Shown piece by piece: positions 43,430 through 58,732 of a stretch of 64,000 nt of DNA. The stretch spans positions 1 through 64,000 of the forward strand of contig NZ_FNQB01000004.1 of assembly GCF_900107455.1 (NCBI RefSeq), read 5' to 3'. This DNA is from Asanoa ishikariensis. GTDB lineage: Bacteria > Actinomycetota > Actinomycetes > Mycobacteriales > Micromonosporaceae. The notes below the pieces were generated by a model, which was not told the DNA's origin, did no database searches, and saw only the letters and a program-made list of their open reading frames with translations. The position numbers were made by a program, and so were the translations under genes. Numbering within the stretch: the first letter of the stretch is position 1; the number at the start of each line of letters is the position of its first letter.

Positions 43430-46400
43430 TCAGTTTCGGCGTCGATCTGCCCCGTGGCGGTCCTGTTCCAGCTTCGACCGGATCGCGTTTCCCGCCAGAG
43501 CGAGCACGTCGCTTTCGCGTCGACGATCAGTGCCGAAGACGCGATTGCAATGCAGGTGAGCGAACGACAGAGCTATCCGTTCGAGCTCTGCGGGAGCAGG
43601 GTCTGTGGCCTCGAGCCGAGTCACGTAGCCGCGGGCGCTGTCCCGCCGTCTCGCCCACGCGTCCAGAACGCTGCCGCAGCCCGGAAGGGCGGCGACGCCC
43701 GGCCGGTCCGCGCGCGTGTCGATCAGCTCCAGGATCTCGGCTCGCGAGGAGCGGAACGCTGCCCGTTGTGTTGGCTCGTTGCTCCATGCGGCCAGCCATC
43801 GCGCGATGGTCTCGGCGGGGCCAAAGGTGAGCAGCAGGTCGACGGCGCTGGCCGTCACGAGTCGGGTCCGGCCCGGCTCGTCCCCCCGCGTCAGGTCCAA
43901 CTCGGCGACCGCGGCGTCGCTGTCGGCCTGGAACACCCGCTCGGCCGCGTCGAGCACCTCCGCTCCGCCGTACCGTTCCTGCTCCGGGTCGTAGCTGTCG
44001 AGCACCAGGCGCTGACTCAGCCCGGCGCTCCAGTCGTGGAGCACCGCCAGCCCGGCCGACCAGAGGGCGGCCGATTCGCCTTTCACCCGGATCCGTAGAT
44101 GCGGTTCGGGGTCGGCGTAGCGCAGGTAGAACCAGCGGTCGAGCGAAACGGCGCGGCCGATCAGAGAGATCAGGTCGGGTAGGTGGTCGCGAATCACGTC
44201 ATCCTGACGTGCGGCGGCGCAGTAGACCTTGGCGTAGAGCCACTCGCCGCCCGGGCGGTGGAGCTGTTCACCGGTGCGCACCCTGGCGGTCGAGAGCGAC
44301 GGTTCCGAGTGGGGCTGCCGCCCCACGAGCGGGACGACCACCTCGCAGAGGTGCGGGCCGCGGTGGCCGAGCAGCCAGCCGTCACGGTAGTCCTCTCCGC
44401 CGGGAAGCTCGGTGATCACCGGTGGGGCCCGACGCACCTGCCGCCGCAGGATTCGGAGGTGTATCTCGTCGTCGAGGCACAGCGGGATACGCCGATCACG
44501 GTCTGCCAACAGGACCCTGTCGGGGATGCCTTCCTCGGCCTGCCAGCGACGTACCGCTTCGGTCCAGCGGCCCGGCTCGGCGTGGGCGGCGGATACCAGC
44601 GCCGTGCCGGCGGTGTTCCAGGACGCGGAGGACAGGATGGCGCGGCCGAGTCGCACCCGGGGCAGGAAGGGTGCGTGGCGAGTGGGACCCCAGCTCCACG
44701 GGAGCATCGCCCGCACCCCGTCGTCGCCGAGATCGCGCAGGAAGCGGACCACAGCGGGCAGGACGCCGTCCGCGCGGAGCAGGTCGAAGATGACGGGTCG
44801 GACGGCACGGCCGTCGGATAGCGAGACCAGGAACAAGCTTGCGGCGGTCGCACCGACGGCGAGCCGCCGCAGCGGTAGCTCGCCGGGTCGCCGCGGCGCG
44901 GTCGGCACGGAGACCGGGATCCGGCGGCACAACCACGACGGTGCCGCGGCGACGTTCGCTGCCCGGCCGGCGAGCGGCCGGTACTCCACTGTCGCGTCGG
45001 TGCGGCCGTCGCTGGCCGCCCGTACCACTTCCTCGATCTCGGTGCGAACGTTGTCGGGGAAGAGGTGGGTGAACCGTGCGAATGCCGTGCCCACCGGGTG
45101 GGTACCGAGATCGGGCGCGACGACGAGCCGGAAGTCGCCGGCGGACAGGGCATCGGCAGTGGGTGCCATCAGCCGGCCGTACAGCTCGAGAGACGCGGGA
45201 GCGGCGCCCCACGTGTCGTCCGCGAGCGTCGCGACGTCGTCCTCGGTGAGGACGACCTCGCGGTTGCGCTGTCGCGCCGCGTCGGTGACCAGCCGGGCCA
45301 GTAGGGCGCAGCGCGCGGGGTGTGGGTCGGGCGCGGGTTCGGGCCGGCCGCGCGACGGTGGTCCGAGACCGTGGTCCGGGGAGAGTAGCTCCAGCACCGG
45401 GACGAGCCGTTCGGTCCCGTACCGGTCGAGGAAACGTCGATGGTAGGCCGCCAACGGTCGCCAAGGCCGGCTCGGGGAGATCCGCCACAGCGCGTCGGCC
45501 GCTCGGGCGGCTTCTTGTGCGACCTCGCGAGGCAGCTCGATCGTCGCGTCGATCGCCAGGTCTACCTGGATCGGTGTGTCAGTCTGGTGCAGCGCGAGCA
45601 TCGGTTCGCTGGCCTGCCGCAACAGCGTGCTGCCGGTTCCCGGCGGTTGGCGGTCGTACGCGTCCAGGCGGCCCTTGATGTCGGCGAACACGCCGGCCCA
45701 CTGTGTGGTGGGCACGCGGTCCGCCCGGCCGACGACATGCTCCATGGGGTCCTGGCAGGCGCTGGTCGGTTCCAGGTCGGTCAACAGGAAGCGCAGCTCC
45801 ACCAGTCTGGCGATCAGGTCCGTGAGGCGCTCCCGCGGTACGACCGGAAAGGCGGTCGCAACCCGGTCCACCAGGTGACGGCAGTGGACGGGGTGCGCGG
45901 CGGCGGCCAGGACGGCGGCCACGACGGGTGTACGCCGCACGGAGGTCTCGGCCAGCTCGCCGGATCCAATGAGGACCACCCGGTCGCCGATCACCGAGTA
46001 CGCGTCGTCGGCGGTCAACCGCAACGCGGGCAGCAGCTCTCGCTCCATCCGCCGCAGCGCATGGCGCAACCACTCCCGGTCCGGTCGGCTGACCGTTCTG
46101 TGCCGGTCGCCGAGACGGACGCGCGCCTGGTCGGCCAGCCGGGCGGTGGCGACCCCGGCCAGCAAGCCGAACGGGGTCGCACGGGCGGCTGCCCGCAGGT
46201 GGTAGCCGGTGACCGACATGGCGATCCGCCACAGTTCGGCGGTGGGCGGAGGAGCCCCGCTCTGGTCGGTTGCCCGTGACCAGGCATCGGCGAGGCTTCG
46301 GCTGGCTACCTCGACCGCCTCCCGCAGCAGCGGGTCCCGGGCCAGAGCGCGCAGCCGGTCCACGAGCGCCGATCGGTCGTCGAGACCTGCCCGGTCCGGT

Positions 46401-46492
46401 GGCGGTGGCAGGTCGGAAGGCAGCGTCGGTACGCGCACGAGCATGAGGTCGAGGGCCCGGAACCTCAACGGCGACGGAATGGGATCGGGCAC
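43430..46492 (-). CDS. LanB-type lantibiotic dehydratase 1 (full length)
   Basis: The 1020-residue product starts at GTG 46492 (AGGAGG 4 bases upstream). Residues about 10-680 form the glutamylation (Lant_dehydr_N) domain, with FRALDLMLVRVPTLP, GYHLRAAARATPFGLLAGVA and RFLDRYGTERLVPVLELL. Residues about 720-1010 form the elimination (SpaB_C) domain: EWLYAKVYCAAARQDDVIRD, WFYLRYADPEPHLRIRVKG and LVLDSYDPEQERYGGAEVL. The family transfers glutamate from Glu-tRNA to Ser/Thr and eliminates it to give dehydroamino acids. The gene lies directly downstream of the Cys-free PIHETTLA precursor gene, separated by a strong hairpin. Its likely substrate is that peptide. No cyclase gene is adjacent. Confidence 0.9.
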   Translation of the reverse strand: MPDPIPSPLRFRALDLMLVRVPTLPSDLPPPPDRAGLDDRSALVDRLRALARDPLLREAVEVASRSLADAWSRATDQSGAPPPTAELWRIAMSVTGYHLRAAARATPFGLLAGVATARLADQARVRLGDRHRTVSRPDREWLRHALRRMERELLPALRLTADDAYSVIGDRVVLIGSGELAETSVRRTPVVAAVLAAAAHPVHCRHLVDRVATAFPVVPRERLTDLIARLVELRFLLTDLEPTSACQDPMEHVVGRADRVPTTQWAGVFADIKGRLDAYDRQPPGTGSTLLRQASEPMLALHQTDTPIQVDLAIDATIELPREVAQEAARAADALWRISPSRPWRPLAAYHRRFLDRYGTERLVPVLELLSPDHGLGPPSRGRPEPAPDPHPARCALLARLVTDAARQRNREVVLTEDDVATLADDTWGAAPASLELYGRLMAPTADALSAGDFRLVVAPDLGTHPVGTAFARFTHLFPDNVRTEIEEVVRAASDGRTDATVEYRPLAGRAANVAAAPSWLCRRIPVSVPTAPRRPGELPLRRLAVGATAASLFLVSLSDGRAVRPVIFDLLRADGVLPAVVRFLRDLGDDGVRAMLPWSWGPTRHAPFLPRVRLGRAILSSASWNTAGTALVSAAHAEPGRWTEAVRRWQAEEGIPDRVLLADRDRRIPLCLDDEIHLRILRRQVRRAPPVITELPGGEDYRDGWLLGHRGPHLCEVVVPLVGRQPHSEPSLSTARVRTGEQLHRPGGEWLYAKVYCAAARQDDVIRDHLPDLISLIGRAVSLDRWFYLRYADPEPHLRIRVKGESAALWSAGLAVLHDWSAGLSQRLVLDSYDPEQERYGGAEVLDAAERVFQADSDAAVAELDLTRGDEPGRTRLVTASAVDLLLTFGPAETIARWLAAWSNEPTQRAAFRSSRAEILELIDTRADRPGVAALPGCGSVLDAWARRRDSARGYVTRLEATDPAPAELERIALSFAHLHCNRVFGTDRRRESDVLALAGNAIRSKLEQDRHGADRRRN

Positions 46493-46515
46493 ATCGCCTC
46501 CTGGTGGGTGACCGG

Positions 46516-46546
46516 GGCGGGTGCGGGCCGCAGGCCCGCACCCGCC
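46516..46546 (-). terminator. Very strong hairpin between precursor 1 and lanB1 (partial terminator or mRNA stabiliser)
   Basis: 14-bp perfect arms (46516-46529, 46533-46546) around a three-base loop lie in the 64-bp gap between the precursor stop and the dehydratase start. No T-run follows. Such hairpins commonly keep precursor mRNA in excess over enzyme mRNA. Confidence 0.65.
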
Positions 46547-46556
46547 GGTGGTGCGG

Positions 46557-46688
46557 TCAGTGGCGGGGCGCGAGGGTGGTCTCGTGAATCGGGCCGGCCA
46601 GGGTGGTCTCGTGGATCGGCTCCTGCTCGCCGGTCGACGCCGTGCGCTCGTCGAGGTGGAGCAGGTCGTCGATGTCCGTGCTGTTCAT
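46557..46688 (-). CDS. RiPP precursor peptide 1 with tandem PIHETTLA repeats
   Basis: The 43-residue peptide starts at ATG 46688 with AAAGGGG about 8 bases upstream. The first 20 residues are acidic (MNSTDIDDLLHLDERTASTG) and contain LHLD, resembling the F/L-x-L-D recognition box of class I leaders. The C-terminal part reads EPIHETTLAG then PIHETTLAPRH: two nearly identical units with Thr pairs at 28-29 and 37-38. There is no Cys, so (methyl)lanthionine cannot form within it. Pro24, Pro33 and Pro41 flank the units. Its place upstream of lanB1 on the same strand makes it the likely substrate. Translation and modification are inferred. Confidence 0.75.
   Translation of the reverse strand: MNSTDIDDLLHLDERTASTGEQEPIHETTLAGPIHETTLAPRH
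46573..46620 (-). repeat. 27-bp tandem repeat inside precursor 1
   Basis: Two copies of a block beginning AGGGTGGTCTCGTG start at 46573 and 46600 on the plus strand and encode the duplicated PIHETTLA unit, with a nine-codon period. Near identity at DNA level points to a recent duplication. Confidence 0.8.
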
Positions 46689-46830: not shown

Positions 46831-48108
46831 ATGCCCACTCGCAACGACATCGCGGTGCGGGAGCGCGGCCGCGTGCGACGCCTCGTTTCCGGGCTTGGCT
46901 GGTGGGATGCGCTGGCAACACCCGGCACCGGCCGGATGCTCGCGCTCAACGCACTGATCGACTCGGCGGGCACCGGCTTGGCCGCCGTCAGCCTGCCCGT
47001 CTACCTGCTGCGCGTGGTGCACCTGTCACCGTCTGAGTTCGCCCTCGTGCTCGCCGCCGGCGGCGTCGCCGAGCTGGCCATGTCCGTGCCGGCCGGCAGT
47101 CTGGCCGGCCGCCTCGGGCTGTGGCGGTACGCGATCGCGACGCGATGGTCGCGCGCGGTGCTGTACGCCGTTTTCGCCTGTACGACCTCGATGTGGCTCT
47201 TGTTGGCGCTCTCGGTGACGATCGGCGCCCTGCGAGCGGCCGGCAACGGGCTCAACCAGAGCATGACCGCCGAGGTGGTGGGGCCCGAGCAGCGGGGCGA
47301 CACCCTGGCCGTGACCCGCGCCGTCCGCAACCTCGGTTACCTGGTCTCCGGTGGCCTCGGAGTGCTCGTTCTCGCTGCACCGTCCGATGTGCCTCTGCGC
47401 ATCGCGTTGGTCGCCAACGGGTTGTCCTTCGTCGTCGGCGCGTTGCTGCTGACGCGCATCCGCCCTCGGCCCGGGTCGCCGGCGGGCGGTCAGGCAGTGC
47501 CCGGCCGGCAGATGGACTTCTCCGTGCTGCGCGATCTTCGCTATCTCGGTCTCATCGCCTCCGCCGCCGTGTTCGCCAGCACGATTCGCGTCCTGGACGT
47601 CGCGTTGCCTTTGTTCGTTCTCCGGGAGGCCGGGGTCCCCTTGGGGATCGTCGCCGGCATCGTCATGCTGAACACCCTGCTGGTGGTGTTGTTGCAACAC
47701 CGCTTCTCCCGTTGGGTCACCGATCTGCCCACCGCGTTGCGCGCCTTGCGGTGGAGCGCGCTGAGCCTGGCCGCGATGGCGATCGTGCTCGCTGTGCTGC
47801 CCGGTCGGCCCGCCGCGGCGGTGGCCGTCGGTCTGACGCTGGCGGGGTTGCTGCTGACCATCGGCGAGCTGACCGAATCGCCCGCCTGGTGGACGCTGTC
47901 CTTCTCGTTCGCGCCCGCCGGCCGCTCCAGCGAGTACCTGGCGGCCTTCGACCTCAACTACGCCCTCCTGAACATCCTCGGCCCGCCGTTGCTGGTCGTG
48001 GTCGTGGAGCACGGCACGGCGGGTTGGTTGGGCTACGCCTGCGCGGTGGCGGCAGCGACACAGCTGGCACATGTCTTGGCCCGCCGTCAGCCGGCGGCGG
48101 GTCGCTAA
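46831..48108 (+). CDS. MFS efflux transporter
   Basis: The 425-residue product from ATG 46831 has about 12 membrane helices, with NALIDSAGTGLAAVSLPVYL as the first and the MFS loop motif GSLAGRLGLWRYAIATRWSR between helices 2 and 3. Further helices include FVVGALLLTRIRP and LTLAGLLLTIGEL. It resembles the macrolide-efflux-type MFS branch. Divergent from precursor 1 and 17 bp upstream of the methyltransferase gene, it probably exports the mature peptide product or gives self-resistance. No ABC transporter with a peptidase domain is present in the cluster, so processing and export would be separate steps. The frame is open to 46603 but lacks hydrophobic or family sequence there. Confidence 0.85.
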   Translation: MPTRNDIAVRERGRVRRLVSGLGWWDALATPGTGRMLALNALIDSAGTGLAAVSLPVYLLRVVHLSPSEFALVLAAGGVAELAMSVPAGSLAGRLGLWRYAIATRWSRAVLYAVFACTTSMWLLLALSVTIGALRAAGNGLNQSMTAEVVGPEQRGDTLAVTRAVRNLGYLVSGGLGVLVLAAPSDVPLRIALVANGLSFVVGALLLTRIRPRPGSPAGGQAVPGRQMDFSVLRDLRYLGLIASAAVFASTIRVLDVALPLFVLREAGVPLGIVAGIVMLNTLLVVLLQHRFSRWVTDLPTALRALRWSALSLAAMAIVLAVLPGRPAAAVAVGLTLAGLLLTIGELTESPAWWTLSFSFAPAGRSSEYLAAFDLNYALLNILGPPLLVVVVEHGTAGWLGYACAVAAATQLAHVLARRQPAAGR

Positions 48109-48125
48109 CCGCAGAAGGGGGACAG

Positions 48126-48860
48126 GTGCTCCGCGACGACCACACGTACCAAGCCGACCTCGCGCTCGTACACGACCTGGGTTTCGGGTTTCACGGCGAC
48201 CGCTGCGCACCGGGCATCCGCGATCTGCTCGAGCCGGTACGCCGACGCGGCGGACTGGTGCTCGAGCTCGGCTGCGGCAGCGGTTCGTTGACCCGACACC
48301 TGCTGGCGGCCGGGCACCGCGTGCTCGCCACGGACGGTTCGCCGGCCATGGTCGCCCGGGCCCGGGCCGCCGTGCCCGCGGCGCAGGTTCGCCGGCTCGT
48401 CCTGCCGGAAGACCCGCTTCCTTCCGTCGACGCCGTCGTGGGTGTGGGCAACGTCCTCAACTACCTGCGTGACGAGTCCGAAGTGGAGCGGGCGCTGACG
48501 GCGATCGCCGCGGCGCTGCGGCCCGACGGAGTGCTCGCCCTCGACCTCGTCGACCGTCGGTGGGGTGAAGATCCCCGGCACCTGGCGCCGATGGGTCGGG
48601 TACGGCCGAGCTGGGCGGTCTTCGCGACGTCCGCGCTGCCCGATCCTGGGCTGCTGGTCCGGGACTTCACCACGTTCGTGCGCGCGGAGGACGGTGGCTG
48701 GCGCCGGGCCGACGAACGCCACGAGATCCGGCTGCTGCAGGGGCAGCGGGTGGCCGACCACCTGCGCGCAGGCGGTGTGGAAGCCACGGTCAACCCGTCG
48801 TTCGGCGCCGAGCGGCTGCGGGCCGGCATGGTCGCCGTCATCGGTCGTCGCACCGGGTGA
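48126..48860 (+). CDS. SAM-dependent class I methyltransferase
   Basis: Start GTG 48126 has GGGGGA upstream (48115-48120). The 244-residue product has motif I GLVLELGCGSGSLTRHLLA (about residues 38-56), ATDGSPAMVARARAAVPAA (motif II region), VDAVVGVGNVLNYL and ALDLVDRRWGEDP. This is a cytosolic Rossmann-fold methyltransferase, target unknown. It follows the MFS gene by 17 bp and is convergent with the glycosyltransferase gene. In this cluster it could methylate the N-terminus, a side chain or a sugar of the peptide product. Confidence 0.85.
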   Translation: MLRDDHTYQADLALVHDLGFGFHGDRCAPGIRDLLEPVRRRGGLVLELGCGSGSLTRHLLAAGHRVLATDGSPAMVARARAAVPAAQVRRLVLPEDPLPSVDAVVGVGNVLNYLRDESEVERALTAIAAALRPDGVLALDLVDRRWGEDPRHLAPMGRVRPSWAVFATSALPDPGLLVRDFTTFVRAEDGGWRRADERHEIRLLQGQRVADHLRAGGVEATVNPSFGAERLRAGMVAVIGRRTG

Positions 48861-48908: not shown

Positions 48909-50849
48909 CTACAGCCGTATCGCGCGCAGGTCGACCAGGTCGAGCAGCATGCGCTCGACGGCCGCTTCGTCGATGCCGTACTGGTCCACCAGACGAGCCG
49001 TGATGTCGGCGATGCGGGTTTGCCCGTCGCACAGGCGCAGCACTTCCTCGGTGGCCGTGCTGATGCGGACCACCTTGCCGTCGAGGTCGCCCCGTTTGAG
49101 GAAGAGGAAGGTCGCTTGTTGGTCGTCGGCGGCGTCGTAGGGCGCGCCGGCACGGACGGCGGCGAGCAGGGTTTCGACGTCGCGGCGGTGGGGCCGGATG
49201 CGAATGGTGTTGCTGGCCACGGGCGCGCGGGTGCCCCATGACACCGGGTCGGAAAGGACGAGGGGGGCGGCTCCTCTGCGGGGGAACATCGTCGCGCCGT
49301 GCAGGCTTTCGAGGTCGAGGTGGCTCCAGAGCAGGTCGCGTTCGAAGAGGGCGGCGGGCTCGGCGACCGGCGGCAGGCCGGCGTCGGGCTCGCCGACGGC
49401 GTCGACGATCGCGTTGGCGGCCGCGTAGGCCCGATGGGCCTCCGAGACGGCGGGCCTGGTGATCGCCTCGCGGACGATGCCGTCGACCGCGTCGCCGAGC
49501 AGGGCCACCGTGGCCGGCATGAACCGGTTGACCAAACGCTGCCAGGCGGGCACGTCGTCCGTGGTCGATGGCGCCGCGCCAGCCTTGGCGGCGATCGCCC
49601 GCTCGAACAAGCGCACGAACGCCTCGCCGAGACCTTCGTCGGCGGTGGCGTCCGGGCCCTGCGCGACGGCCGCCCCGGCTTTGCCGATGGCCCGCGCCGC
49701 CTCCGGATCCGTGATGATCCGATCCAGGACACGGCTGAGCTCGTCGGTGTCGACGGGGTTCTCGACGACGAGAACGTTCTCGCCGTGCCGGAGCTCGTCG
49801 CGGTTGTACTGCTTGTCGGCGATCTCCCGGGAGACGACGAGACACGTGCCCGCCGCCATCACCTCCCGCGGAATTCCGGGACTGTGGATGGGGACCGGGA
49901 AGTCGCGCTCCAGGAAGCAGCCGGCGGTCAGGGCGCGCAGGAACTCGGGCACCCGCCAGGGCGGCATGAAGGGCAGCGTCCACGTCGTCTCCGCGAGGCC
50001 GGCGGTGTCGACGGCCCGCAGGAACCGCTCGCGCTGGTACCCGCCGGACATCACGAGCAGGTTGAACCGCCGGCCGGACTCTTTGCACCGGCGCAGCGCC
50101 GCCACCAGGTCGTAGCTGCCCTTGAACTCGCTGAGCTTGCCGTAGATGCCGATGGTGGGCAGCTCGTCGGGCATCGGTGCGGTGTTGGTGATCCACGGAT
50201 GGCCGGCCGCGGCCAGCGCCGCGATCCTCGCGTTGACGTCGAGCGGCGTCACGTTCGGATCACTGAACCCCACGGGCGCACCGCGGGGCGGCATCGAGGC
50301 GACCCGTTCGGCGGGGATGCCGTACCCCTCGATCGTGCCCGGATTGGCGACGATGAGATCCGCTCGCCGCAGCACCTCCCGGTAGGCCATCGAGAGGTCC
50401 GGGTGGGCGAGGAGCCGGGTCCGGTCGCTGCCCGCATGCTGCACGACGTGCGGGCGCCCGGTCCACGCGGCGGCGAGGTGGGCGGCCAGGCCGTACGGCT
50501 CCAGGTAGTAGGAGAAGACGACATCGGCGTCGATGCGCCGGATCTCCTCGGTGGCCAGGGCCGCCAGCTTGGTGGCGAAGGGCTTGTGGTCCGGGATGTG
50601 CGCGGCGTGCTTGCGGCCCAGCGGTGAGGTCGCGACCAGCGTCACCGACCCCCCGTTGGGAAAGGTCGCCTCCAGCTTGGCCCTGTCGGCCGGCTCCATC
50701 CAGATCCGGTAGTCGTCTTCGACCTCGTCGGCGTTCGTCACCACGCTGACCTGGTGACCCGCAGCGGCCAGGGACATCACCAGCCGGTAGCTCAACGCGC
50801 TGACCCCGCCCTGGATCGGTGGGTACTTCACGACGGCGCAGATACGCAT
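48909..50849 (-). CDS. GT-B (family 4-like) glycosyltransferase fused to a C-terminal PqqD-like (RRE) domain
   Basis: The 646-residue product starts at ATG 50849 with AGGAA upstream, 10 bp after the preceding gene's stop. Residues about 1-180 (RICAVVKYPPIQGGVSALSY, VVQHAGSDRTRLL) and 220-400 (PTIGIYGKLSEFKGSYDLVA, HSPGIPREVMAAGTCLVVSR) are the two Rossmann halves of a GT-B glycosyltransferase. After a helical linker, residues about 565-646 read TFLFLKRGDLDGKVVRISTA, EEVLRLCDGQTRIADITARL and AVERMLLDLVDLRAIRL, the strand-helix pattern of PqqD-like proteins that bind RiPP leader peptides. It is the last gene of the precursor-2/MNIO operon, so it probably glycosylates a leader-bound peptide. Confidence 0.8.
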   Translation of the reverse strand: MRICAVVKYPPIQGGVSALSYRLVMSLAAAGHQVSVVTNADEVEDDYRIWMEPADRAKLEATFPNGGSVTLVATSPLGRKHAAHIPDHKPFATKLAALATEEIRRIDADVVFSYYLEPYGLAAHLAAAWTGRPHVVQHAGSDRTRLLAHPDLSMAYREVLRRADLIVANPGTIEGYGIPAERVASMPPRGAPVGFSDPNVTPLDVNARIAALAAAGHPWITNTAPMPDELPTIGIYGKLSEFKGSYDLVAALRRCKESGRRFNLLVMSGGYQRERFLRAVDTAGLAETTWTLPFMPPWRVPEFLRALTAGCFLERDFPVPIHSPGIPREVMAAGTCLVVSREIADKQYNRDELRHGENVLVVENPVDTDELSRVLDRIITDPEAARAIGKAGAAVAQGPDATADEGLGEAFVRLFERAIAAKAGAAPSTTDDVPAWQRLVNRFMPATVALLGDAVDGIVREAITRPAVSEAHRAYAAANAIVDAVGEPDAGLPPVAEPAALFERDLLWSHLDLESLHGATMFPRRGAAPLVLSDPVSWGTRAPVASNTIRIRPHRRDVETLLAAVRAGAPYDAADDQQATFLFLKRGDLDGKVVRISTATEEVLRLCDGQTRIADITARLVDQYGIDEAAVERMLLDLVDLRAIRL

Positions 50850-50859
50850 CTCTGGTTCC

Positions 50860-51690: not shown

Positions 51691-52523
51691 GCGGGCGCCG
51701 CCGCTCGCATGGCGGATCGGGCCCGCTCGACCTCGCCGAGCAACTCGCCGAAGTCGTCGGGGAAGTCCTGGTCGCGTTCGATCAGCGACGCCTTCAGCGG
51801 TGCGCGCCGCAGCAACTCGTCGAAGAGCGCCCAGACCGGCTCGGGTACGGGCGAGGAGTGCGAGTCGAGCAACGTCTCGTGTGCCTCCGTGCCCCCGGCC
51901 AGATGCACCTGGACCACGCGCTCGGTCGGGATGGCGTCGAGGAAGCCCGCGGCGTCGTAGCCGTGGTTGCGCGCGTTGGTGTGCAGGTTGGTCAGGTCCA
52001 GCAGCAGCCCGCACTCGCAGTGCTCGCAGAGCTCGGCGATGAACTCGGCTTCGGTCAGCTCGGTGCGCAGGTCGACGTGGTAGGTGATGTTCTCCAGGAT
52101 GAAGGGCACACCGACCCGCTCCTGGATCCGTTGGGCCTTGCGGCCGAGCTCCTTGGCCAGCGCCCGGGAACGGGGGAGGGGTGTCAGCGAGCCCAGCGAG
52201 ACGCCGCCGGCCCGGGTGAAGCAGAGATGGTCGCTGAAGTACGGCGCGTCGATCTCCTCCACCAGCGCGGCCAGTGCGTCGAGGTAGTCCTCGTCCACCT
52301 CGCCGGGAGTGCCGATCGACATCTCGATGCCGTGCGGCACGATCGGGAACGCCGCGCTGAGCTCCGCCAGGCGTTCGCGGCCCTGTACCGAGGCGAAGAG
52401 GTAGTGCTCGCTGATCACCTCGAGCCAATCGATCCGGTCGCGGTGCTCCATTGTCGGCTGGTGGATCTCGCGCCGGTAGCCGAGTCCGCTACCCAGGTGC
52501 GGTAGGTCATGCAGGGGTGTCAC
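51687..52523 (-). CDS. MNIO (DUF692) multinuclear iron-dependent oxidase
   Basis: The 278-residue product from GTG 52523 has the TIM-barrel blocks of DUF692: GSGLGYRREIHQPTM, DWLEVISEHYLFAS, FPIVPHGIEMSIGTPGEVDE, YFSDHLCFTRAGGVS, VPFILENITYHV, LLLDLTNLHTNARNHGYDA, RVVQVHLAGGTEAHETLLDS, HSSPVPEPVWALFDELL and LIERDQDFPD. The His, Asp and Glu residues in these blocks bind two or three irons. Known members oxidise peptide cysteines (oxazolone/thioamide in methanobactin, beta-carbon excision by TglH). The gene lies directly downstream of the six-Cys precursor 2, making those cysteines the probable target. Length is typical for the family. Confidence 0.9.
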   Translation of the reverse strand: MTPLHDLPHLGSGLGYRREIHQPTMEHRDRIDWLEVISEHYLFASVQGRERLAELSAAFPIVPHGIEMSIGTPGEVDEDYLDALAALVEEIDAPYFSDHLCFTRAGGVSLGSLTPLPRSRALAKELGRKAQRIQERVGVPFILENITYHVDLRTELTEAEFIAELCEHCECGLLLDLTNLHTNARNHGYDAAGFLDAIPTERVVQVHLAGGTEAHETLLDSHSSPVPEPVWALFDELLRRAPLKASLIERDQDFPDDFGELLGEVERARSAMRAAAPA

Positions 52524-52613: not shown

Positions 52614-52625
52614 ACGGTCGGGGAC

Positions 52626-52823
52626 TCAGATCTCCAGCACGGTGTGACCGGTCGAGATGATCGTGCAGCACGAGCCGCACAGTCCGCCCTGGCAGGACCC
52701 GTAGCAGTTGCAGGTCAGGGCGACCGGGCCGTCGCCCGAACCCCCGATGAGCGTCTCGGTGGCGACCGTTTCCAGCAGGAACGGTTCCTGCCCGGCAGTT
52801 GCCCCCGTCTTGGCGATGGTCAT
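52626..52823 (-). CDS. RiPP precursor peptide 2, six-cysteine core
   Basis: The 65-residue peptide starts at ATG 52823 with GGGAGG 6 bases upstream. Residues 1-33 look like a leader (QEPFLLETVATETLIGG, ending GDGP) and include PFLLE, an F-x-L-(D/E)-like box. The rest begins VALTCNCYGSCQGGLCGSCC and ends STGHTVLEI. Cysteines are at 38, 40, 44, 49, 52 and 53, with Thr37, Ser43, Ser51, Thr54, Ser57, Thr58 and Thr61 nearby. It heads the operon precursor-MNIO-partner-GT. Both LanB dehydration of Ser/Thr and MNIO oxidation of Cys are possible. I do not recognise the core as a known family. Confidence 0.8.
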   Translation of the reverse strand: MTIAKTGATAGQEPFLLETVATETLIGGSGDGPVALTCNCYGSCQGGLCGSCCTIISTGHTVLEI

Positions 52824-52933: not shown

Positions 52934-54898
52934 GTGTGTAGCTCGGCCCGTGATGCTCCAGCGGTGTTCACCACGGCGACCGGGGAGGCGCTCGCTCCGT
53001 GCTTCGTGGCGCCGCGGGTTCGTGGGTTGGCCGTGGCGCCCGACGGCGACCGGTATGCCCTGGAGATCGACACGATGACCTCGTCCGGTGGCCGGCTGCC
53101 ACCAGCGGTGTGGTTGGGCCGGATCGGCACGCCGCCCCGGCCGGCGTTCGTGGGTCGCCAGGTCACCTTGCTCTCCGGCGGGGTGGCCCTGTACCGGGCG
53201 CGCTCGGTGGAACGGCCCGGCCGCGACGCGCTGTGGCGCCGCGACGAAACAGCGGCGGCGGAGGAGATCGCCGCGCCGCCCGGAGGCGTCGCCGGCTACC
53301 GTGCCGCCACGCGGTCCGGGGTTGTCGTCTATGCCACCCGGACGCCCCACAGCGCCGATGCCGTGCTCTTCGACGGCGGGCAACCGGTTGGGTCGTTGCG
53401 CGGCGACGGCGGGGGGCGGCCGCGGCTCGTGCTGCTGCGGCCCGGGTGCGAGCCGACCGCGCTACCCGATCCCCCTGATGGCGTCTTGGACGGAGCGTTC
53501 GACCTCAGCGCGGACGGCACGCGGATCGTGGCCACCTGCCGCCTGCGCGGTGGAACCGCCTACCGAACCGTCCTGCTCGTGGCCGAGTGCGACCGGCACG
53601 ACCGCTGGCGGTGGCGAACCGTGCTCGACGACCCGGAGGGCTCGTTCGCCCATCCGGTCCTGAGCCCGGACGGCCGCAGGATCGTCTGCATGCGCGGCGA
53701 CAGCGGCCGCAGGCGCTCCGGAAACAACGCGGGCACACCCCCGGACACCGCCCTCTGGATCGCCGACCTGGACCCTCCGGGTGGCGCCCGCCGGGTGGCA
53801 GCGGAACTGGAGTGCCGGGCCGGCGAGGCGGCCTGGTCTCCGGACGGAGAGCGGCTCTACGTCTGCGCGGACCGCTGCGGCAACCGCCCGGTCTACGAGA
53901 TCACCGTCGACGGCGGCTACCGGCGTCTCACCGCCGTCGGCGCGTTCGAACAGGTCGCAGCGGCCGGGGACGCGGTGTACGCACTGCGTTCCGCGCTGGA
54001 CTCACCGCCGGCTCCCGTCGTGATCCGGGCGTCGGCCGTTCCCGGACGGCGAGGGCCGTACCCGCTGGGAATGCCGGCGGCGGCGGGTCGGCCGGGCACC
54101 CTGGAGCGTGTCTCGGTGGTGACGGAGGACGGGCACCGCGTTCACGGATGGCTTTGCCGGCCGCCGAGCACCGGCCGAAAGGTGCCGTTGCAGGTCTGGC
54201 TGCACGGCGGCCCGTACGCGAGCTGGGCGGCCTGGTCGTGGCGCTGGAACCCCTGGCTGGCCGTGCGGCGCGGCTACGCCGTCCTGCTACCTGATCCGGC
54301 ACCGTCCATTGGGTACGGACGGGCCTTCCGGCGCAGGGCATGGGGCGACTGGTCAGGCGCGCCGCGTACCGACGTGTTGTCGATCGTGGCCGAGGTGCGT
54401 GGACGTCCCGGCATCGACGCGTCCCGCGTGGCCGTGCTGGGCTCCTCGTTCGGCGGTTTCCTGGTCAACCTGCTGGTGACGCGCTCCGACGCCTTCCAGG
54501 CGGCGGTCAGTCACGCGGGGATGTGGGACCTCGCCGCCTTTGCCAGCGGCAGTGTGGTCGCGGCGCCGTTCATCGCCGAGTTCGGGCATCCGGTCGATCC
54601 GGCGGGAGCGGGCTACGCGGCGCACTCGCCCCGGACCGGTGCGGCGGCCGTCCGGACGCCGATCCTCGTCAGCCACGGCAGCCGGGACGACAAGGTGCCC
54701 TACACAGAGGCGCTTGCCCAGTACGCCGACCTGTGCCACCTCGGCAAACCCGTGCGGCTACTGCTTCTTTCCGACGAGGGCCACGAAATCGCCCGGGCGG
54801 CGAACGTCCAGCTGTGGTACGAGTGTGTCTTCGCGTTCCTGGCCCACGTCCTCGACGGGGTGCCCTTCGAGGTGCCGGGTCCGCTGCGGCGGGCTTGA
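52934..54898 (+). CDS. S9-family (prolyl-oligopeptidase-type) serine peptidase
   Basis: The 654-residue product (GTG 52934; a GTG at 52964 is also possible) has no signal peptide, so it is cytosolic. Residues about 20-390 are a beta-propeller (GAFDLSADGTRIVATC, PVLSPDGRRIVCMRGD, AWSPDGERLYVCADRC). The catalytic domain has Ser505 in VAVLGSSFGGFLVNLL, Asp585 in SHGSRDDKVPYTEAL and His617 in SDEGHEIARA. Family S9 enzymes cleave after Pro or basic residues in short peptides. It is transcribed divergently from precursor 2, 110 bp away, which suggests coordinated expression. It is the only protease in the cluster and thus the candidate leader or core-releasing peptidase. Confidence 0.85.
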   Translation: MCSSARDAPAVFTTATGEALAPCFVAPRVRGLAVAPDGDRYALEIDTMTSSGGRLPPAVWLGRIGTPPRPAFVGRQVTLLSGGVALYRARSVERPGRDALWRRDETAAAEEIAAPPGGVAGYRAATRSGVVVYATRTPHSADAVLFDGGQPVGSLRGDGGGRPRLVLLRPGCEPTALPDPPDGVLDGAFDLSADGTRIVATCRLRGGTAYRTVLLVAECDRHDRWRWRTVLDDPEGSFAHPVLSPDGRRIVCMRGDSGRRRSGNNAGTPPDTALWIADLDPPGGARRVAAELECRAGEAAWSPDGERLYVCADRCGNRPVYEITVDGGYRRLTAVGAFEQVAAAGDAVYALRSALDSPPAPVVIRASAVPGRRGPYPLGMPAAAGRPGTLERVSVVTEDGHRVHGWLCRPPSTGRKVPLQVWLHGGPYASWAAWSWRWNPWLAVRRGYAVLLPDPAPSIGYGRAFRRRAWGDWSGAPRTDVLSIVAEVRGRPGIDASRVAVLGSSFGGFLVNLLVTRSDAFQAAVSHAGMWDLAAFASGSVVAAPFIAEFGHPVDPAGAGYAAHSPRTGAAAVRTPILVSHGSRDDKVPYTEALAQYADLCHLGKPVRLLLLSDEGHEIARAANVQLWYECVFAFLAHVLDGVPFEVPGPLRRA

Positions 54899-54904
54899 CG
54901 TGTC

Positions 54905-57900
54905 CTATGTGCTTGGTTGGTGATGGCGGGCGCGGTCCGCGTGGGCCCGCATCGCGCCGCGGGCGATAGCCACCGCCGCGTGCTCCGCCTCGGTGTCGAG
55001 CCCGAGGAGCCGGTTGCAGTGCAGGTGGACCAGGCTGGCGGCGACACCGGCGGGCCGTTCGGTGAGATGAAGCCGGCGGCCCAACTCGGCCAGGGCCGAC
55101 CGGCGCCGTGTCCAACTGGCCACCAGAGCGTCCCCAGCGGGTAGAGCGCGGATCGAGGCGAAGTCGTCCGCTGGGTCGACGAGCGCTACGGCCGAGCGGC
55201 GCATGGAGGTGAACACGGCGCGCCCGGCCGCGCTGACCGGTCGGGCGGACCACGCCGCGGTGAGCTCCGGGTCACCCAGCGAGCGCACGAGGTCGACGAT
55301 GCCGGCAGCGGCGACCAGGAGAGGCTCGGCGCCGACCGGAGCGGAGCGCAACTCGTCCAGCACGGTCAGGCTGTCGGCGGTGAAAACGCGCTCGGCGGCC
55401 GCGATCGCGTGGAGGCCCCCATACCGCTCGATCTCGGGCTCGTACCCGTCGAGCAGCAGTTCGCCGGCGAGCCCTCGCCGGCGCAACATCTCCGTCCAGT
55501 CCCGGACGGCCGAGAGGCCGGCGCTCCACAGCCGCTCGTCCGTGGAACGGAAGCGGAGCCGCAGGTGCGAGGCCGGATCCGCGAACCGGACGAAGTGCCA
55601 AGCGTCCACGTGGAGAGGACCGAGGAGCGCGTCGAGCAGGCCGGGCAGGTGCTCGCGCAGAACGATCAGCTCTGTCGATCGGGGTACGTAGAGCCGGGCA
55701 GAGAGCCACGAGCCGCCCGGCAGGACGAGCCGGTCGGAGCGTGGCGGGGCGCCGCGTACGGAAACGGGCTCGGGCGGTGCCGGTCGGGGCCCGGTCAACG
55801 GGATCACCAACTCGACCGTGTGTGCGCCATCGGGTCCGGTGAACCACCCGTCCGGGCAGTCCTCACCGCCGGGCAGTTCCAGCAGGCATGCCCCGGCCGT
55901 GCGAGCGACCTGCTGGCGCAGCATCCGAAGATGCAGGGGATCGGTGAGGTTCACTGGAATGTACTGGTCGTCCGCCGTACGCAGCAGCGCGGCGTCGGGG
56001 AGCCGGACGGCCTCTCGCCAGCGGGCGAACCGGTCTGCCCAGGACGCCGCGTCCGCTGCCGGCCCGGTGAGTGCGGGACTGAGGTTCCAGCGGGCCGATG
56101 ACAGGACGGTACGACCGAGGCGGATCCGCGGCAGGAAGGGCGCCTCGTCCAGCCCGGCCCAGTCCCAGCCGGTGAGCTCACCGCGGTAGCCGGTGGCGAG
56201 CTCGTCGAGGAGACGAGCGACAGGCGATTCGAGCGCGCCGGGATGCAGCAGGTCGAACCGGATGGGCACGACGTCGCGTCCGTCGTCGAGCGTGACCAGC
56301 CGGAGCCGGTGCTCGGTCGCGGTGACCCCCAACGCCGACAGGGGCAGTTCGCCGCCACCGCGGAGCCCAGGGCCGACGCCGACGCGAATGTGGCGGTCCA
56401 TCCAGTCGGGGGCGGCGCCGCAGTTCGCCGCCTCCTCGCCCGCCGTGCGGCAGACGAGGACGGCATGCCGCACGGCGCCATCGGTGTACGCCGCCCGCAC
56501 CGCTTCGCGCACCGGGCCCGCCGCCTGGCCGAGGAGCGCCGAGAACCGACCGAACGACGCACCGAGCCGACGGGTCCCCAGCGACCTACCTAGGACCAGG
56601 CGGAAGTCGCCAGCGTCCAAATGGGACGGTGATGCGGCACGGAGGACCGCGTACAGCTCTACTTCGGCGGGAGCGTCGACGTCGCGGTCCTGGTTGGCCA
56701 GGCGAGCCACGGCCGCCTGGTCGAGGACGATCTCACGGGCACCTTCCGCCACTGCTGCGTGCACGTACTCGGCGAGGAGCCGGCGCCGGCCCGGCAGCGG
56801 CGTGGCGGGTGCGCGGTTCCGGCCAGTGATCGGACCGAGCCCGGTGGCGCCGAGCAGCTCGGCGAGCGGCACCACCCGTCGAGGGCCGTAGCGGTGGAAG
56901 AAGCGCCGGTGGTAGGCGGCCAACGGCGAACGCCGCGCCGGGCCGGACATCCGCCAGATCGCCTCGACCGCCCGTGCCGCCTCGTCGACGACACCGTGGG
57001 GCAGCCGCACCTCCGCGTCCAGCCGCAGGTCGACGCGGATGGGCCGATCGGCCGCTTGGAGCGACCGCATCGTCGCGCTGACACGGTCGAAGATCGCCGC
57101 CCTTCGTGACGGGATCGCCGCCTCGTACTCGCGGAGCCCGGAACGGATGTGCCGCAAGACCGGATTCGCTGGGTGGTCCGGCCGATGGGCCAGCCGGTCG
57201 AGCACGTGGCCAAGGCCGTCGTCCACCTCGGAGGTCGGTGTGAGGTCGGAGTGGAGGAAGCCCAGCGTGACCAACCGTCCGATCAGTTCGGGCAGGAAGC
57301 GGGTCGGCGAGTCCGGCAGGGCGTTGGCAGCCTCCTCCAGCAGGCGTGCGAAGCCGATCGGAGCGCTCGCCGTGCGCAGTAGCGTCCGAATGGGCTCGGT
57401 GGCCTGGACGACTGTCTCCACCCCACGTCGCGGTAACACCAGGTGGTCACCGCGCTCGTGGACGGTCGCGTCAGCGACCAGCCGCGCTCGCGCCAGCAGG
57501 TCCGGCTCCCGCTCCAGCCGGGCGGCCACGGAGAGCAGCCAGGACGCGTCCGGCCGGGCGTGGTGGTGGTGCCGCACGCCGACGCGGACCCGGGCGCTGT
57601 CCCCGATGGTCCCGATCGCGATCCCCGCGAACAGCCCTGACGGCGTGGGTCGGTGACTCATCCGCAACGCGTAGCCGGTCAGGCCGGTGGCCAGTCGGAC
57701 AAGGCGCGAGCCGCTCGCCGAGTCACTGCGTTCGGCTGCCTCTGAGAGGCTCGGGCTGGCGAGCCGAACCGCATCGAGCAGCTCGGGTCGGCCGACCAGG
57801 TCCCGCACGTACCGTCGCAGGTGGACGTCCGAGACTCCACCGGGCGGCGGTGGCGCGGAAGCCCGCGGCAACGCGGGTGCGCGCACGAGGACGAACCCGG

Positions 57901-57934
57901 TCGCGGTGAAGCGTGGCTGCTGGTGGCCGACCAT
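54905..57934 (-). CDS. LanB-type lantibiotic dehydratase 2 (full length)
   Basis: The 1009-residue product from ATG 57934 has the same architecture as LanB1. The glutamylation domain has ATGFVLVRAPALPRASA, GYALRMSHRPTPSGLFAGIA and RFFHRYGPRRVVPLAELLGA. The C-terminal SpaB_C domain has SWLSARLYVPRSTELIVLRE, WHFVRFADPASHLRLRFRS and LLLDGYEPEIERYGGLHAI. The two dehydratases are clearly distinct paralogues. The start codon lies 3 bp after the stop of the SARP gene, so they form an operon. Its stop is 6 bp from the convergent peptidase stop. The substrate is unclear; precursor 2, with many Ser/Thr, is the leading candidate. Confidence 0.9.
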   Translation of the reverse strand: MVGHQQPRFTATGFVLVRAPALPRASAPPPPGGVSDVHLRRYVRDLVGRPELLDAVRLASPSLSEAAERSDSASGSRLVRLATGLTGYALRMSHRPTPSGLFAGIAIGTIGDSARVRVGVRHHHHARPDASWLLSVAARLEREPDLLARARLVADATVHERGDHLVLPRRGVETVVQATEPIRTLLRTASAPIGFARLLEEAANALPDSPTRFLPELIGRLVTLGFLHSDLTPTSEVDDGLGHVLDRLAHRPDHPANPVLRHIRSGLREYEAAIPSRRAAIFDRVSATMRSLQAADRPIRVDLRLDAEVRLPHGVVDEAARAVEAIWRMSGPARRSPLAAYHRRFFHRYGPRRVVPLAELLGATGLGPITGRNRAPATPLPGRRRLLAEYVHAAVAEGAREIVLDQAAVARLANQDRDVDAPAEVELYAVLRAASPSHLDAGDFRLVLGRSLGTRRLGASFGRFSALLGQAAGPVREAVRAAYTDGAVRHAVLVCRTAGEEAANCGAAPDWMDRHIRVGVGPGLRGGGELPLSALGVTATEHRLRLVTLDDGRDVVPIRFDLLHPGALESPVARLLDELATGYRGELTGWDWAGLDEAPFLPRIRLGRTVLSSARWNLSPALTGPAADAASWADRFARWREAVRLPDAALLRTADDQYIPVNLTDPLHLRMLRQQVARTAGACLLELPGGEDCPDGWFTGPDGAHTVELVIPLTGPRPAPPEPVSVRGAPPRSDRLVLPGGSWLSARLYVPRSTELIVLREHLPGLLDALLGPLHVDAWHFVRFADPASHLRLRFRSTDERLWSAGLSAVRDWTEMLRRRGLAGELLLDGYEPEIERYGGLHAIAAAERVFTADSLTVLDELRSAPVGAEPLLVAAAGIVDLVRSLGDPELTAAWSARPVSAAGRAVFTSMRRSAVALVDPADDFASIRALPAGDALVASWTRRRSALAELGRRLHLTERPAGVAASLVHLHCNRLLGLDTEAEHAAVAIARGAMRAHADRARHHQPST

Positions 57935-57937
57935 CGG

Positions 57938-58732
57938 CTACCGTCCGAAGGCGGGGGACAGCCAGGGGGAGGGGTCTCCGTTGGAGAGGGCGGGGTCACG
58001 ATCGAGAATCGCCCGTTGGATCCCGGCCAGCAGCGGGCCCGGCTCCAGACCGAGCTCTTCGGCGAGGGTGTGGCGGGCGTCGGCGAACGCGTTGAGGGCC
58101 TCACCGACCCGTCCGGCCCGGTAGAGCGCGATGATGAGCTGAGCGCGTACGCGTTCGCAGAGCGGATCCGCGTCGACCGAGGCCCGTAACCCGCCTACCA
58201 GCTCGTCGTCGAGGCCCAGCCGGAGCCGTGCGTCCGTCCAGTCGCGCACCGCGGACCGGTGTTGCTCCTGCAGGCAGTCGATCCAGCGGTCGATCGCCGG
58301 GGTCGTCGGCAGGTCGGCCAGGGGTTGGCCCCGCCACAACGTGACCGCGCGGCGGATCGACTCGGCCCCCTCGGCCACGTCGCCGCGCCGCAGTTCGTCC
58401 CGTCCCTGGTTGGTCAGCTGCTGGTGCGCGAGCGCGTCAAGCTCGCCAGCGTCGATCGCCAGCCGGTAGCCGGTGGTGGTGCAGCTGAGCCGGTGGCTGG
58501 AGCCGTCGACGGCCAGGGTGTTACGGATCGCCCAGACATAGGTGTAGAGGTTGGCGGCAGCGGATGCCGGGGGCTGCTGACCCCAGAGCTCGTCGACCAG
58601 CATGGACCGGGACACGAGCTGATTGGCGTTGGCAAGCAAGAGCGCGAGCACAACCTTCGGCTTGACCCGGTGAAGATGCTGCACGGTCGCGCCGCGACGG
58701 ATCTCTAGTTGCCCCAGGACGGAGAACCTCAC
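57938..58732 (-). CDS. SARP-family (BTAD) transcriptional activator 1
   Basis: The 264-residue product from GTG 58732 (GAGAGGG upstream) has an OmpR-type DNA-binding domain (VRFSVLGQLEIRRGATVQHL, VSRSMLVDELWGQQPPASAA) and a bacterial transcriptional activation domain (AVTLWRGQPLADLPTTPAID, LIIALYRAGRVGEALNAFAD, LAEELGLEPGPLLAGIQRAI). Small SARPs are typical cluster-situated activators. It is directly upstream of lanB2 (3 bp between stop and start) and divergent from SARP 2. A longer start at ATG 58795 is possible but lacks a ribosome binding site. Confidence 0.85.
   Translation of the reverse strand: MRFSVLGQLEIRRGATVQHLHRVKPKVVLALLLANANQLVSRSMLVDELWGQQPPASAAANLYTYVWAIRNTLAVDGSSHRLSCTTTGYRLAIDAGELDALAHQQLTNQGRDELRRGDVAEGAESIRRAVTLWRGQPLADLPTTPAIDRWIDCLQEQHRSAVRDWTDARLRLGLDDELVGGLRASVDADPLCERVRAQLIIALYRAGRVGEALNAFADARHTLAEELGLEPGPLLAGIQRAILDRDPALSNGDPSPWLSPAFGR

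Follow-up and report, generated by a model that had tools for sequence, protein, structure and literature searches.

The hallmark of the pearlins, among the described systems closest to the present locus, is a small LanB-like ligase that has no elimination domain; TglB is LanB-related, and we know of no PEARL that carries the elimination domain PF14028. The glycosyltransferases of glycocins, such as those of sublancin and glycocin F, belong to GT2. Fusions of a RiPP recognition element (RRE) to a glycosyltransferase are noted in the accessible text of PMC12710340, where the glycosyltransferase family is PF00535, and the same text gives FxLD/LxLD as a lanthipeptide leader class. Further, the accessible part of PMC7794033 links sprH3/sprPT (class V lanthipeptide) pairs with a DUF692 gene in four cases. 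A search of article text, outside which lay figures and most subscription papers, found no described family with the gene set reported here, and the statement to that effect in the initial annotation stands as far as the literature could be searched.

The cluster lies in the window, i.e. the whole 64,000-nucleotide stretch of DNA of the soil actinomycete Asanoa ishikariensis that was analysed. As listed in Table 1, its named genes are open reading frames, with frames backed by codon-position GC, and the GC content is 71–73% across 44–58 kb compared with 63–71% in the preceding 2-kb bins (before 44 kb). The LanB pair, the MNIO, the MFS exporter, the class I methyltransferase and the S9 peptidase that had been proposed for the locus were all matched by Pfam; both of the two unlike precursor genes are present, and the MNIO gene is coupled to its partner gene by a 4-base overlap (51687–51690). 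SARP regulators are indeed attached, and there are two of them, but the original end of the cluster (58732) falls inside the first, and the second lies outside that span. We infer the roles given below to the S9 peptidase, the methyltransferase and the MFS exporter. The methyltransferase was also considered as a daptide enzyme (daptide_MTase) and rejected at 64.8 bits (cut-off 175).

Table 1. Genes of the cluster, with their positions in the window.
Feature	Coordinates	Strand	Basis
lanB1, full-length LanB dehydratase, both domains	43430..46492	-	Pfam PF04738 1-649/649 + PF14028
Precursor 1, 43 aa, no Cys	46557..46688	-	Sequence; AAAGGGG preceding ATG
MFS exporter, start codon uncertain	46831..48108	+	PF07690 (MFS_1) 1e-22, query from 46828
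Class I methyltransferase, GTG start chosen by analyst	48126..48860	+	Methyltransf_12 1e-14, query from 48105
GT4 glycosyltransferase fused to MNIO-partner-like helical domain + RRE	48909..50849	-	Pfam, profile comparison, AF2, Foldseek
MNIO partner protein, TglI-like (PME-type 2 kind)	50860..51690	-	AF2 model + Foldseek
MNIO (formerly DUF692) oxidase	51687..52523	-	PF05114 1.2e-80
Precursor 2, 65 aa, six Cys, PFLLE leader motif, core CNCYGSCQGGLCGSCC	52626..52823	-	Sequence; homologues in G792, G808
S9 peptidase, uncertain start, alignment to homologues from residue 21	52934..54898	+	PF00326 (Peptidase_S9) 2e-36
lanB2, full-length LanB dehydratase, both domains	54905..57934	-	PF04738 2-649/649 + PF14028
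SARP regulator	57938..58795	-	BTAD 2e-33
Large SARP-type regulator (BTAD, NB-ARC, TPR)	58840..61674	+	Pfam

The most interesting feature of the cluster is the fusion of the glycosyltransferase to a partner-like domain. The MNIO scores 271 bits against PF05114 (cut-off 25) and aligns with 3bww and TglH; its best NCBIfam match is BufB at 235.9 bits (cut-off 310), and HvfB gives 198.7 (cut-off 360), under the cut-off in both cases. The MNIO partner matched no Pfam family and bears no DUF2063 signature; the best Foldseek match of its AF2 model (pLDDT 84.9) is TglI (8hi7_A, E 2.7e-6), followed by 3dee (3e-3). Judged by this model, the protein adjoining the MNIO is an RRE-bearing partner. The glycosyltransferase matches GT4 families in Pfam, together with a weak PqqD match (24.0 bits, cut-off 23.4), and its AF2 model (pLDDT 88.3) matches BshA and MshA in Foldseek; a PDB sequence search gave one weak, irrelevant match only. 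Queries with this protein started two codons upstream (48909–50855), and their residue numbers are accordingly 2 higher. In profile comparisons, the N part of the partner matched only the middle of the glycosyltransferase (95.7%, E 1e-8) and the C part only its end (99.2%, E 1e-19), with no more than 1.1% in each of the remaining four partner/glycosyltransferase pairings. By homology, the MNIO partner is present a second time, in large part, within the GT4 enzyme, with the helical part as well as the RRE; the earlier label of a PqqD-fused glycosyltransferase fell short of what the fusion contains.

Counterparts of all twelve genes are grouped, in a different order, in two other Asanoa genomes, G792 (A. 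iriomotensis) and G808, with proteins ~29–74% identical (tblastn). Identity to these two genomes is 70–72% for the MNIO, 59–60% for the glycosyltransferase, 44–46% for the S9 peptidase, 54–55% for the SARP regulator and 58% for the large SARP-type regulator; the orthology of the MFS exporter is weak because its match reaches only 29–32%. In three further Asanoa genomes the glycosyltransferase had no match and the only MNIO is a different one, 40–41% identical to that of the cluster; genome G752, which is 69% complete, has LanBs of the cluster kind without glycosyltransferase or MNIO. The LanBs and the MNIO operon were thus not found at separate loci in relatives but together, as the initial annotation had anticipated for one system rather than chance neighbours, and the cluster is most likely one co-inherited unit. 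The gene content, the domain make-up, the recurrence of the set and the homology between glycosyltransferase and partner are direct observations.

Both LanBs matched Lant_dehydr_N over its full length (lanB1, 2e-165; lanB2, 9e-147) and also Lant_dehydr_C in Pfam. Both match the elimination domain PF14028, which sets them apart from the small pearlin-type ligase, and keep the HLR and H..NR motifs, which are catalytic. The nearest solved relative of lanB1 is MibB (5ehk, E 1e-143), to which lanB2 aligns at 4e-104. No LanC (PF05147) was found on the cluster's contig (C5), the matches within the same genome being confined to C6 and C3. In a LanB tree of 15 retained rows (L106, a wrong ORF, and G762_2, a long branch, were removed), AU tests on groups named after viewing a first tree rejected one-to-one orthology between the window LanBs and those of G792/G808 (p 1.6e-4 for lanB2+LanBb, 4e-69 for lanB1+LanBa and 1e-5 for lanB1+LanBb) and also a single clade of all six (p 7e-7), the LanBs of G752 falling among them; a clade of lanB1 and lanB2 was neither rejected nor demonstrated (AU p 0.40).

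The core of precursor 1 contains PIHETTLA twice, and its leader motif is LHLD; with its counterparts, the motifs read LHLD, FVLD, FALD or LALD, of the FxLD/LxLD lanthipeptide class. Both G792 and G808 have a counterpart that resembles precursor 1 in build, position and leader; tblastn with the window peptide found nothing in these genomes, and the cores are dissimilar in sequence. Between G792 and G808, the precursor 1 counterparts differ by 8 non-synonymous and 3 synonymous codon changes. Precursor 2 has homologues in G792 (44.7%, 7e-9) and G808 (42.9%, 1e-9) and encodes Ser/Thr besides Cys; inspection of its 65 residues by eye revealed no Sec signal peptide and no EGKCG or Lys-Cys motif.

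Beyond Asanoa, the cassette of MNIO, partner and glycosyltransferase is widespread and occurs in LanB-free form in about five phyla. An MNIO lies nearby in 16 of the 18 named loci whose glycosyltransferase match reaches the RRE, and the median gap between the two genes is 792 bases (40 loci holding both). LanB was absent from 78 of 79 scanned cassette loci; among the 40 that include an MNIO, 39 had no LanB. LanB-less cassette precursors of Sorangium, two Nocardia and Actinosynnema retain the P[FY]L[FL]E leader motif, and no precursor was found in the Microtetraspora cassette (MNIO 67% identical); these precursor families are the analyst's reading of a plus-strand screen with ad hoc filters (Cys/Arg content and codon-position GC) that includes false ORFs, and the locus gene lists come from a simple custom script. 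The partner, used as a probe, matched in 5 of the 397 genomes searched in the order at E ≤ 1e-3, the source genome included; the glycosyltransferase at E ≤ 1e-40 matched only in the source genome and one other (G613) among 394 genomes of the class. PLSDB plasmids yielded just 2 partial matches (~30% identity).

Overall, the results lean towards one co-inherited, SARP-regulated RiPP cluster with two modules that make two peptides, a model in which we infer every chemical step and every assignment of an enzyme to a peptide. The initial annotation had offered one multiply modified peptide or two related products; two are the more likely because the leaders differ, the LanB-side precursor has no Cys, LanC is missing from the contig, and the MNIO-partner-glycosyltransferase cassette stands independently elsewhere. 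In the first module, two proteins would bind the PFLLE leader of precursor 2, the TglI-like partner through its RRE and the GT4 enzyme through its fused homologous domain. The MNIO, an iron oxidase, would oxidize Cys of the CNCYGSC-type core, after which the glycosyltransferase would attach a sugar, most likely to a sulfur or oxygen that the MNIO has uncovered; the donor would be a nucleotide sugar, and the likeness in fold to BshA and MshA suggests UDP-GlcNAc or similar. A sugar on the mature peptide is predicted from the glycosyltransferase fold and the peptide-binding domain. In the second module, the F/LxLD leader of precursor 1 would be bound by LanB, and the two LanBs would dehydrate Thr of the repeated core; because there is neither Cys nor LanC, the product would stay an open-chain dehydropeptide. 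The S9 peptidase may remove leaders or split the repeats, the methyltransferase may cap one product, and the MFS pump would export.

A credible though clearly less probable reading is a single product, in which the LanBs also (or mainly) dehydrate Thr/Ser of precursor 2, with precursor 1 as a second substrate of the same enzymes; precursor 2 would then carry dehydration, Cys oxidation, a sugar and a methyl group, and thioether rings might form in it even in the absence of LanC. Consistent with this, a LanB in G792 directly follows the glycosyltransferase gene in the same direction, ~60 bases apart. Further, the Cys-rich cores of three LanB clusters contain 3, 6 and 6 Thr, whereas five LanB-less relatives have no Thr there, a pattern indicating that LanB acts on precursor 2 too; however, two of the three are almost the same sequence, the analyst chose the five relatives (one core has 5 residues), and Thr does occur in other cassette precursors. 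A faint IHxT likeness joins precursor 1 of the window to precursor 2 of A. iriomotensis (score reached by 23 of 500 shuffles), but a core motif common to both precursors was rejected, the other two pairings being equalled by 132 and 296 of 500 shuffles. The differing leader motifs and the missing LanC also argue against a single product.

With rather more reserve, the fusion of GT4 enzyme and partner could be the mark of glycosylated MNIO peptides as a large family not yet described: a glycosyltransferase that acquired a copy of the partner would thereby have reached the MNIO substrate and would cap the group that the MNIO makes (e.g. a thiooxazole thiol). In Asanoa, this cassette would have joined up with two LanBs that also remove water from Thr in the tail of that peptide, and the product would be a dehydrated, Cys-oxidized, glycosylated hybrid. 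It is improbable that two unrelated RiPP clusters sharing nothing are neighbours by accident: LanB is absent from nearly all cassette loci elsewhere, and G752 holds same-group LanBs without the cassette, but the full set is found in three genomes despite differences in gene order and much sequence divergence, with a LanB inserted between the glycosyltransferase operon and the methyltransferase-MFS pair in G792 and G808, and chance neighbourhood is rejected because two further genomes carry the set. Least probable is that the LanBs act as PEARLs, like TglB, adding residues from aminoacyl-tRNA for modification by the MNIO: pearlins do pair a LanB-related enzyme with the MNIO TglH and its partner TglI (accessible text of PMC11002830), and TglI is the best structural match of the cluster's partner, but both LanBs retain PF14028 with the HLR and H..NR motifs, and Cys is already encoded in precursor 2.

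If the two-peptide model is true, the cluster would be a case of a tailoring enzyme joining a RiPP pathway through fusion to a copy of the substrate-carrier protein, with free and fused partner copies side by side in one operon. Widespread Cys-rich MNIO precursors would then probably be glycosylated, a modification for which our search turned up no description in MNIO pathways; the second module would be a LanB system that lacks LanC and has a Cys-free substrate. In the Asanoa clusters it could also be tested whether different leader codes separate two RiPP pathways in one cluster.

Compared with known systems, the cluster resembles captophorins and bufferins (5-thiooxazole; PMC12668002, PMC12452194) in an MNIO closest to BufB/HvfB, an RRE-bearing partner and a Cys-rich precursor, but its MNIO scores under the family cut-offs, its partner has no DUF2063 signature, its precursor has no EGKCG or Lys-Cys motif, and a glycosyltransferase lies inside the operon. 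It shares an RRE-glycosyltransferase fusion with those noted in the accessible text of PMC12710340, whereas here the enzyme is GT4 and the helical partner part is fused too. The sprH3/sprPT loci also have lanthipeptide-type genes beside an MNIO, but use other dehydration enzymes, and the accessible account describes no LanB pair or glycosyltransferase-partner fusion. Class I lanthipeptides (LanB, LanC) have the same two-domain LanB, and precursor 1 has an F/LxLD-type leader; unlike them, the cluster has two LanBs, no LanC on its contig and no Cys in precursor 1. The pearlin (3-thiaglutamate) pathway (TglA, TglB, TglHI) likewise combines a LanB-related enzyme with an MNIO and a partner, and the model of the cluster's partner resembles TglI; however, TglB appends Cys to the end of the peptide, whereas the cluster has encoded Cys, two full-length LanBs with elimination domains and a GT4-partner fusion, and no small TglA-type carrier peptide was seen in it. 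Finally, as in glycocins, a glycosylated Cys-bearing RiPP is expected here, but in place of a GT2 enzyme the cluster has a glycosyltransferase of GT4 families, with the BshA/MshA fold and a partner domain, beside an MNIO.

Reading frames picked by codon-position GC, with Pfam as support, bore out the gene positions of the initial annotation, and the genes lie in the order LanB1-precursor 1-MFS-MT-GT-partner-MNIO-precursor 2-S9-LanB2-SARP-regulator.

Features of the two-LanB/MNIO cluster of A. ishikariensis
Feature	Position	Strand	Support and remarks
lanB1, full-length LanB	43430-46492	minus	Pfam
Precursor 1 gene, good candidate (Cys-free)	46557-46688		MNSTDIDDLLHLDERTASTGEQEPIHETTLAGPIHETTLAPRH
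MFS exporter	46831-48108	plus	Pfam; start codon chosen by us
Class I methyltransferase (MT)	48126-48860	plus	Pfam; start codon chosen by us
Glycosyltransferase (GT) with PqqD-like end	48909-50849	minus	Pfam
Partner protein	50860-51690	minus	Without Pfam match
MNIO	51687-52523	minus	Pfam
Precursor 2 gene, good candidate (Cys-rich)	52626-52823		MTIAKTGATAGQEPFLLETVATETLIGGSGDGPVALTCNCYGSCQGGLCGSCCTIISTGHTVLEI
S9 peptidase	52934-54898	plus	Pfam
lanB2, full-length LanB	54905-57934	minus	Pfam
SARP	57938-58795	minus	Pfam
Large SARP/NB-ARC/TPR regulator, adjoins SARP	58840-61674	plus	Pfam

At E ≤ 1e-100, lanB1 matched in 12 of 200 genomes of the family, its own included, and two genomes of the same genus, A. 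iriomotensis (G792) and G808, each carry two LanBs within 9 kb. As determined by tblastn of the window proteins over the 34 kb and 38 kb around these pairs, counterparts are present for S9 (44-46% identity), precursor 2 (43-45%), MNIO (70-72%), partner (42-45%), GT (59-60%), SARP (54-55%) and the large regulator (58%); the two LanBs are 37-42% identical to the window LanBs, the methyltransferase 59% (in G808 as two pieces, 74 and 43%, split between stretches) and the MFS exporter only 29-32%. Window precursor 1 as a tblastn query gave no match in these stretches; a counterpart adjoining a LanB was found by eye in A. iriomotensis, and its sequence as query retrieved that of G808 (83%). Both clusters read regulator-SARP-ABC ATPase gene-LanBb-precursor 1-MFS-MT-LanBa-GT-partner-MNIO-precursor 2-S9, the ABC ATPase gene (Pfam) being without counterpart in the window.

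Chance neighbourhood of separable loci was weighed against a single system. In a PF05114 search of six genomes, three further Asanoa genomes (G762, G822 and G833) each encode a single MNIO that shares only 40-41% identity with the cluster MNIO, and G792 and G808 have two each, one of them 70-72% identical. The GT query matched none of five genomes (G762, G822, G833, G752 and G811; E ≤ 1e-20) in a search run without a built-in positive control; in another search, the same query did detect the GT of its own genome. No LanB was found in G822 or G833 (lanB1 query, E ≤ 1e-100), and the LanBs of G762 are other ones than the cluster's. Among six Asanoa genomes, GT and cluster-type MNIO thus occur only where the LanB pair occurs, which supports the initial view of one system rather than separable loci. 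A counter-case is G752, of another genus, whose two LanBs, on small contigs, belong to the same group; no GT (E ≤ 1e-20) or MNIO (PF05114) was found in this genome, which is 69% complete and in 1,080 contigs. On one of these contigs (C242, 1-4084), a gene for a 40-aa precursor that lacks Cys and has an LALD leader stands directly before the LanB and a glutamine-amidotransferase/asparagine-synthase-type gene (Pfam) follows it; this locus is possibly a LanB-only relative of the precursor 1 module. Overall, the results confirm a coherent cluster of two RiPP modules. A second MNIO of A. ishikariensis (contig C2, ~3007296-3008072) is 39% identical to the cluster MNIO, and its neighbour resembles a membrane protein, with an ABC transporter nearby (both by eye); an MNIO with 40-41% identity to that of the cluster is likewise present in five further Asanoa genomes.

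Both window LanBs retain both domains (Pfam), have MibB as nearest solved relative and hold motifs that are catalytic in NisB. In a 15-row tree, they group with one G752 LanB (90/92; 95/96 in a first tree), and the four LanBs of G792 and G808 group with the other (100/100). Orthology between window and Asanoa LanBs was rejected in three tests (p at most 1.6e-4), and therefore either LanB duplication took place separately in each lineage or genes were replaced. LanC occurs in the A. ishikariensis genome on contigs C6 and C3 only; a separate LanB and LanC pair on C6 (413421-417562) resembles a conventional class I lanthipeptide locus. Elsewhere in the family, two LanBs of G762 and one of G877 are also followed by a LanC-like gene (by eye).

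The main interest lies in the GT-partner fusion and its spread. The initial annotation had described a GT-B/PqqD fusion; the PqqD-like end stands, and profile-profile alignment shows in addition that a partner copy is built into the GT. The profiles of seven partners and of 21 GTs gave a single alignment, which spans most of the partner (99.2%, E 1.7e-19). The N-terminal part of the partner (1-165) matched only the GT middle (400-545; 95.7%, E 1e-8) and the C-terminal part (166-276) only the GT end (530-648; 99.2%, E 1.2e-19), the other four pairings reaching ≤1.1%. Because the former match spans partner residues 57-148, the first some 56 residues are unsupported in the fusion. In the AF2 model of the GT (pLDDT 88.3, pTM 0.87), a two-domain GT extends to about residue 400, followed by helices (406-510) and then by strands and helices in RRE-like order (551-642); by Foldseek, its catalytic part resembles BshA, MshA and GlgM. 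The partner model (pLDDT 84.9) best matched TglI (2.7e-6, TM 0.59), followed by NGO1945 (3dee; 3e-3) and GdmN chains, with PqqD and further RREs ranking lower (E ≥ 0.09). Partners of the TglI kind are termed PME-type 2 in a portion of PMC12452194.

Scanning 84,980 species, each represented by one genome, with a three-GT alignment yielded 81 relatives, of which 80 were kept, equal to 79 loci; the scan relied on two exact peptide patterns, so that variant GTs were missed, many flanks are short, and row L016 of the query duplicates the record of locus L036. MNIO was present in 40 of the 79 loci (tblastn with window proteins) at a median of 792 bases from the GT (largest gap 5,225), on the same strand in 35 of the 40; two MNIOs in the 9.09 Mb window genome correspond to about 0.4% per 20 kb. 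Where the match reached GT residue 560 or beyond (18 loci), 16 have an MNIO, and the two others are a 4.7 kb contig (L020) and a true miss in 20 kb (L031). By record titles, the 16 comprise 10 Actinomycetota, 2 Myxococcota, 2 Acidobacteriota, 1 Pseudomonadota and 1 Chloroflexota. LanB was found in one of the 79 loci, that of A. iriomotensis. In the Nocardia, Actinosynnema and Plesiocystis loci inspected, the genes that flank the precursor, MNIO, partner region and GT appear to be unrelated. A further GT of this kind, in G277 (L010), has no MNIO within 19 kb.

Several loci deserve separate mention. Asparagine-synthase-type genes adjoin the cassette in Sorangium, in an Acidobacteria MAG and in Nocardioides, with Pfam support for the last. 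The Nocardioides aequoreus cassette (L016/L036, 2693-19849) has two Cys-rich precursors and two such genes, and in addition another GT-type gene and carbamoyltransferase-type genes resembling NodU; Pfam supports one of these assignments. A Thermoanaerobaculia MAG (L030, 12110-19024) has one MNIO with two GT4-RRE genes around it, along with a row of about eight short ORFs that are rich in Cys, have a GG-type leader end and bear cores resembling CTGCEGCDRCNGC. GT4-RRE genes lacking an MNIO in the available stretch are those of G277 (7556-9598), adjoining another GT-like and a sulfotransferase-like gene by eye, and of the Mycobacterium MAG L031 (8520-10574). A different kind of precursor, with hydrophobic cores that resemble CIVCFVCFVC, accompanies the MNIO and GT genes of five loci (L034, L037, L038, L044 and L054; records of Chloroflexota, Acetobacteraceae, Bryobacteraceae and Streptomyces).

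Precursor 2 of the window, A. iriomotensis and G808 shares PFLLE, GPVA and TCNC[YF]GSC, and in cassettes without LanB, Cys-rich cores are preceded by PFLFE (Sorangium) or PYLFE (two Nocardia, Actinosynnema). From the first Cys onward, the three LanB-associated cores, two of them near-identical, contain 3, 6 and 6 Thr and five LanB-less cores, chosen by us and one only 5 residues long, contain none; as Thr is also present in other cassette precursors, this contrast is only a hint. Between G792 and G808, precursor 2 differs at 14 of 71 codons (6 non-synonymous). For precursor 1 the count is 11 of 49 (8 non-synonymous), and its two TGTGTAP stretches are conserved. The precursors 1 of the window, G792, G808 and G752 are Cys-free and carry LHLD, FVLD, FALD or LALD, and the core is repeated twice in those of the window, G792 and G808; FxLD is a lanthipeptide leader motif with FxLD-to-LxLD variation, according to a section of PMC12710340.

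We propose that two leader codes would feed two modules inside a single regulated cluster. The sugar donor, the attachment atom, the MNIO chemistry and the roles of S9, MT and MFS are all inferred. BufB and HvfB are the best-scoring families for the MNIO, though below both cut-offs, and a thiooxazole product would be a guess. As modified Lys-Cys motifs of fontiphorin can be alkylated with iodoacetamide (part of PMC12668002), such a sulfur could serve a GT.

In the literature searched, figures excepted, we recognised no description of a GT-partner fusion and, in agreement with the initial annotation, no described family with a LanB pair, MNIO and GT; GT neighbours of MNIOs may have been noticed earlier in paper figures. 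PMC13381572 reportedly deals with RREs that keep co-localised RiPP pathways apart. Among known systems, RREs fused to PF00535 glycosyltransferases are already mentioned in an excerpt of PMC12710340, and an excerpt of PMC7794033 already gives four cases in which a lanthipeptide-type gene pair is linked to DUF692.
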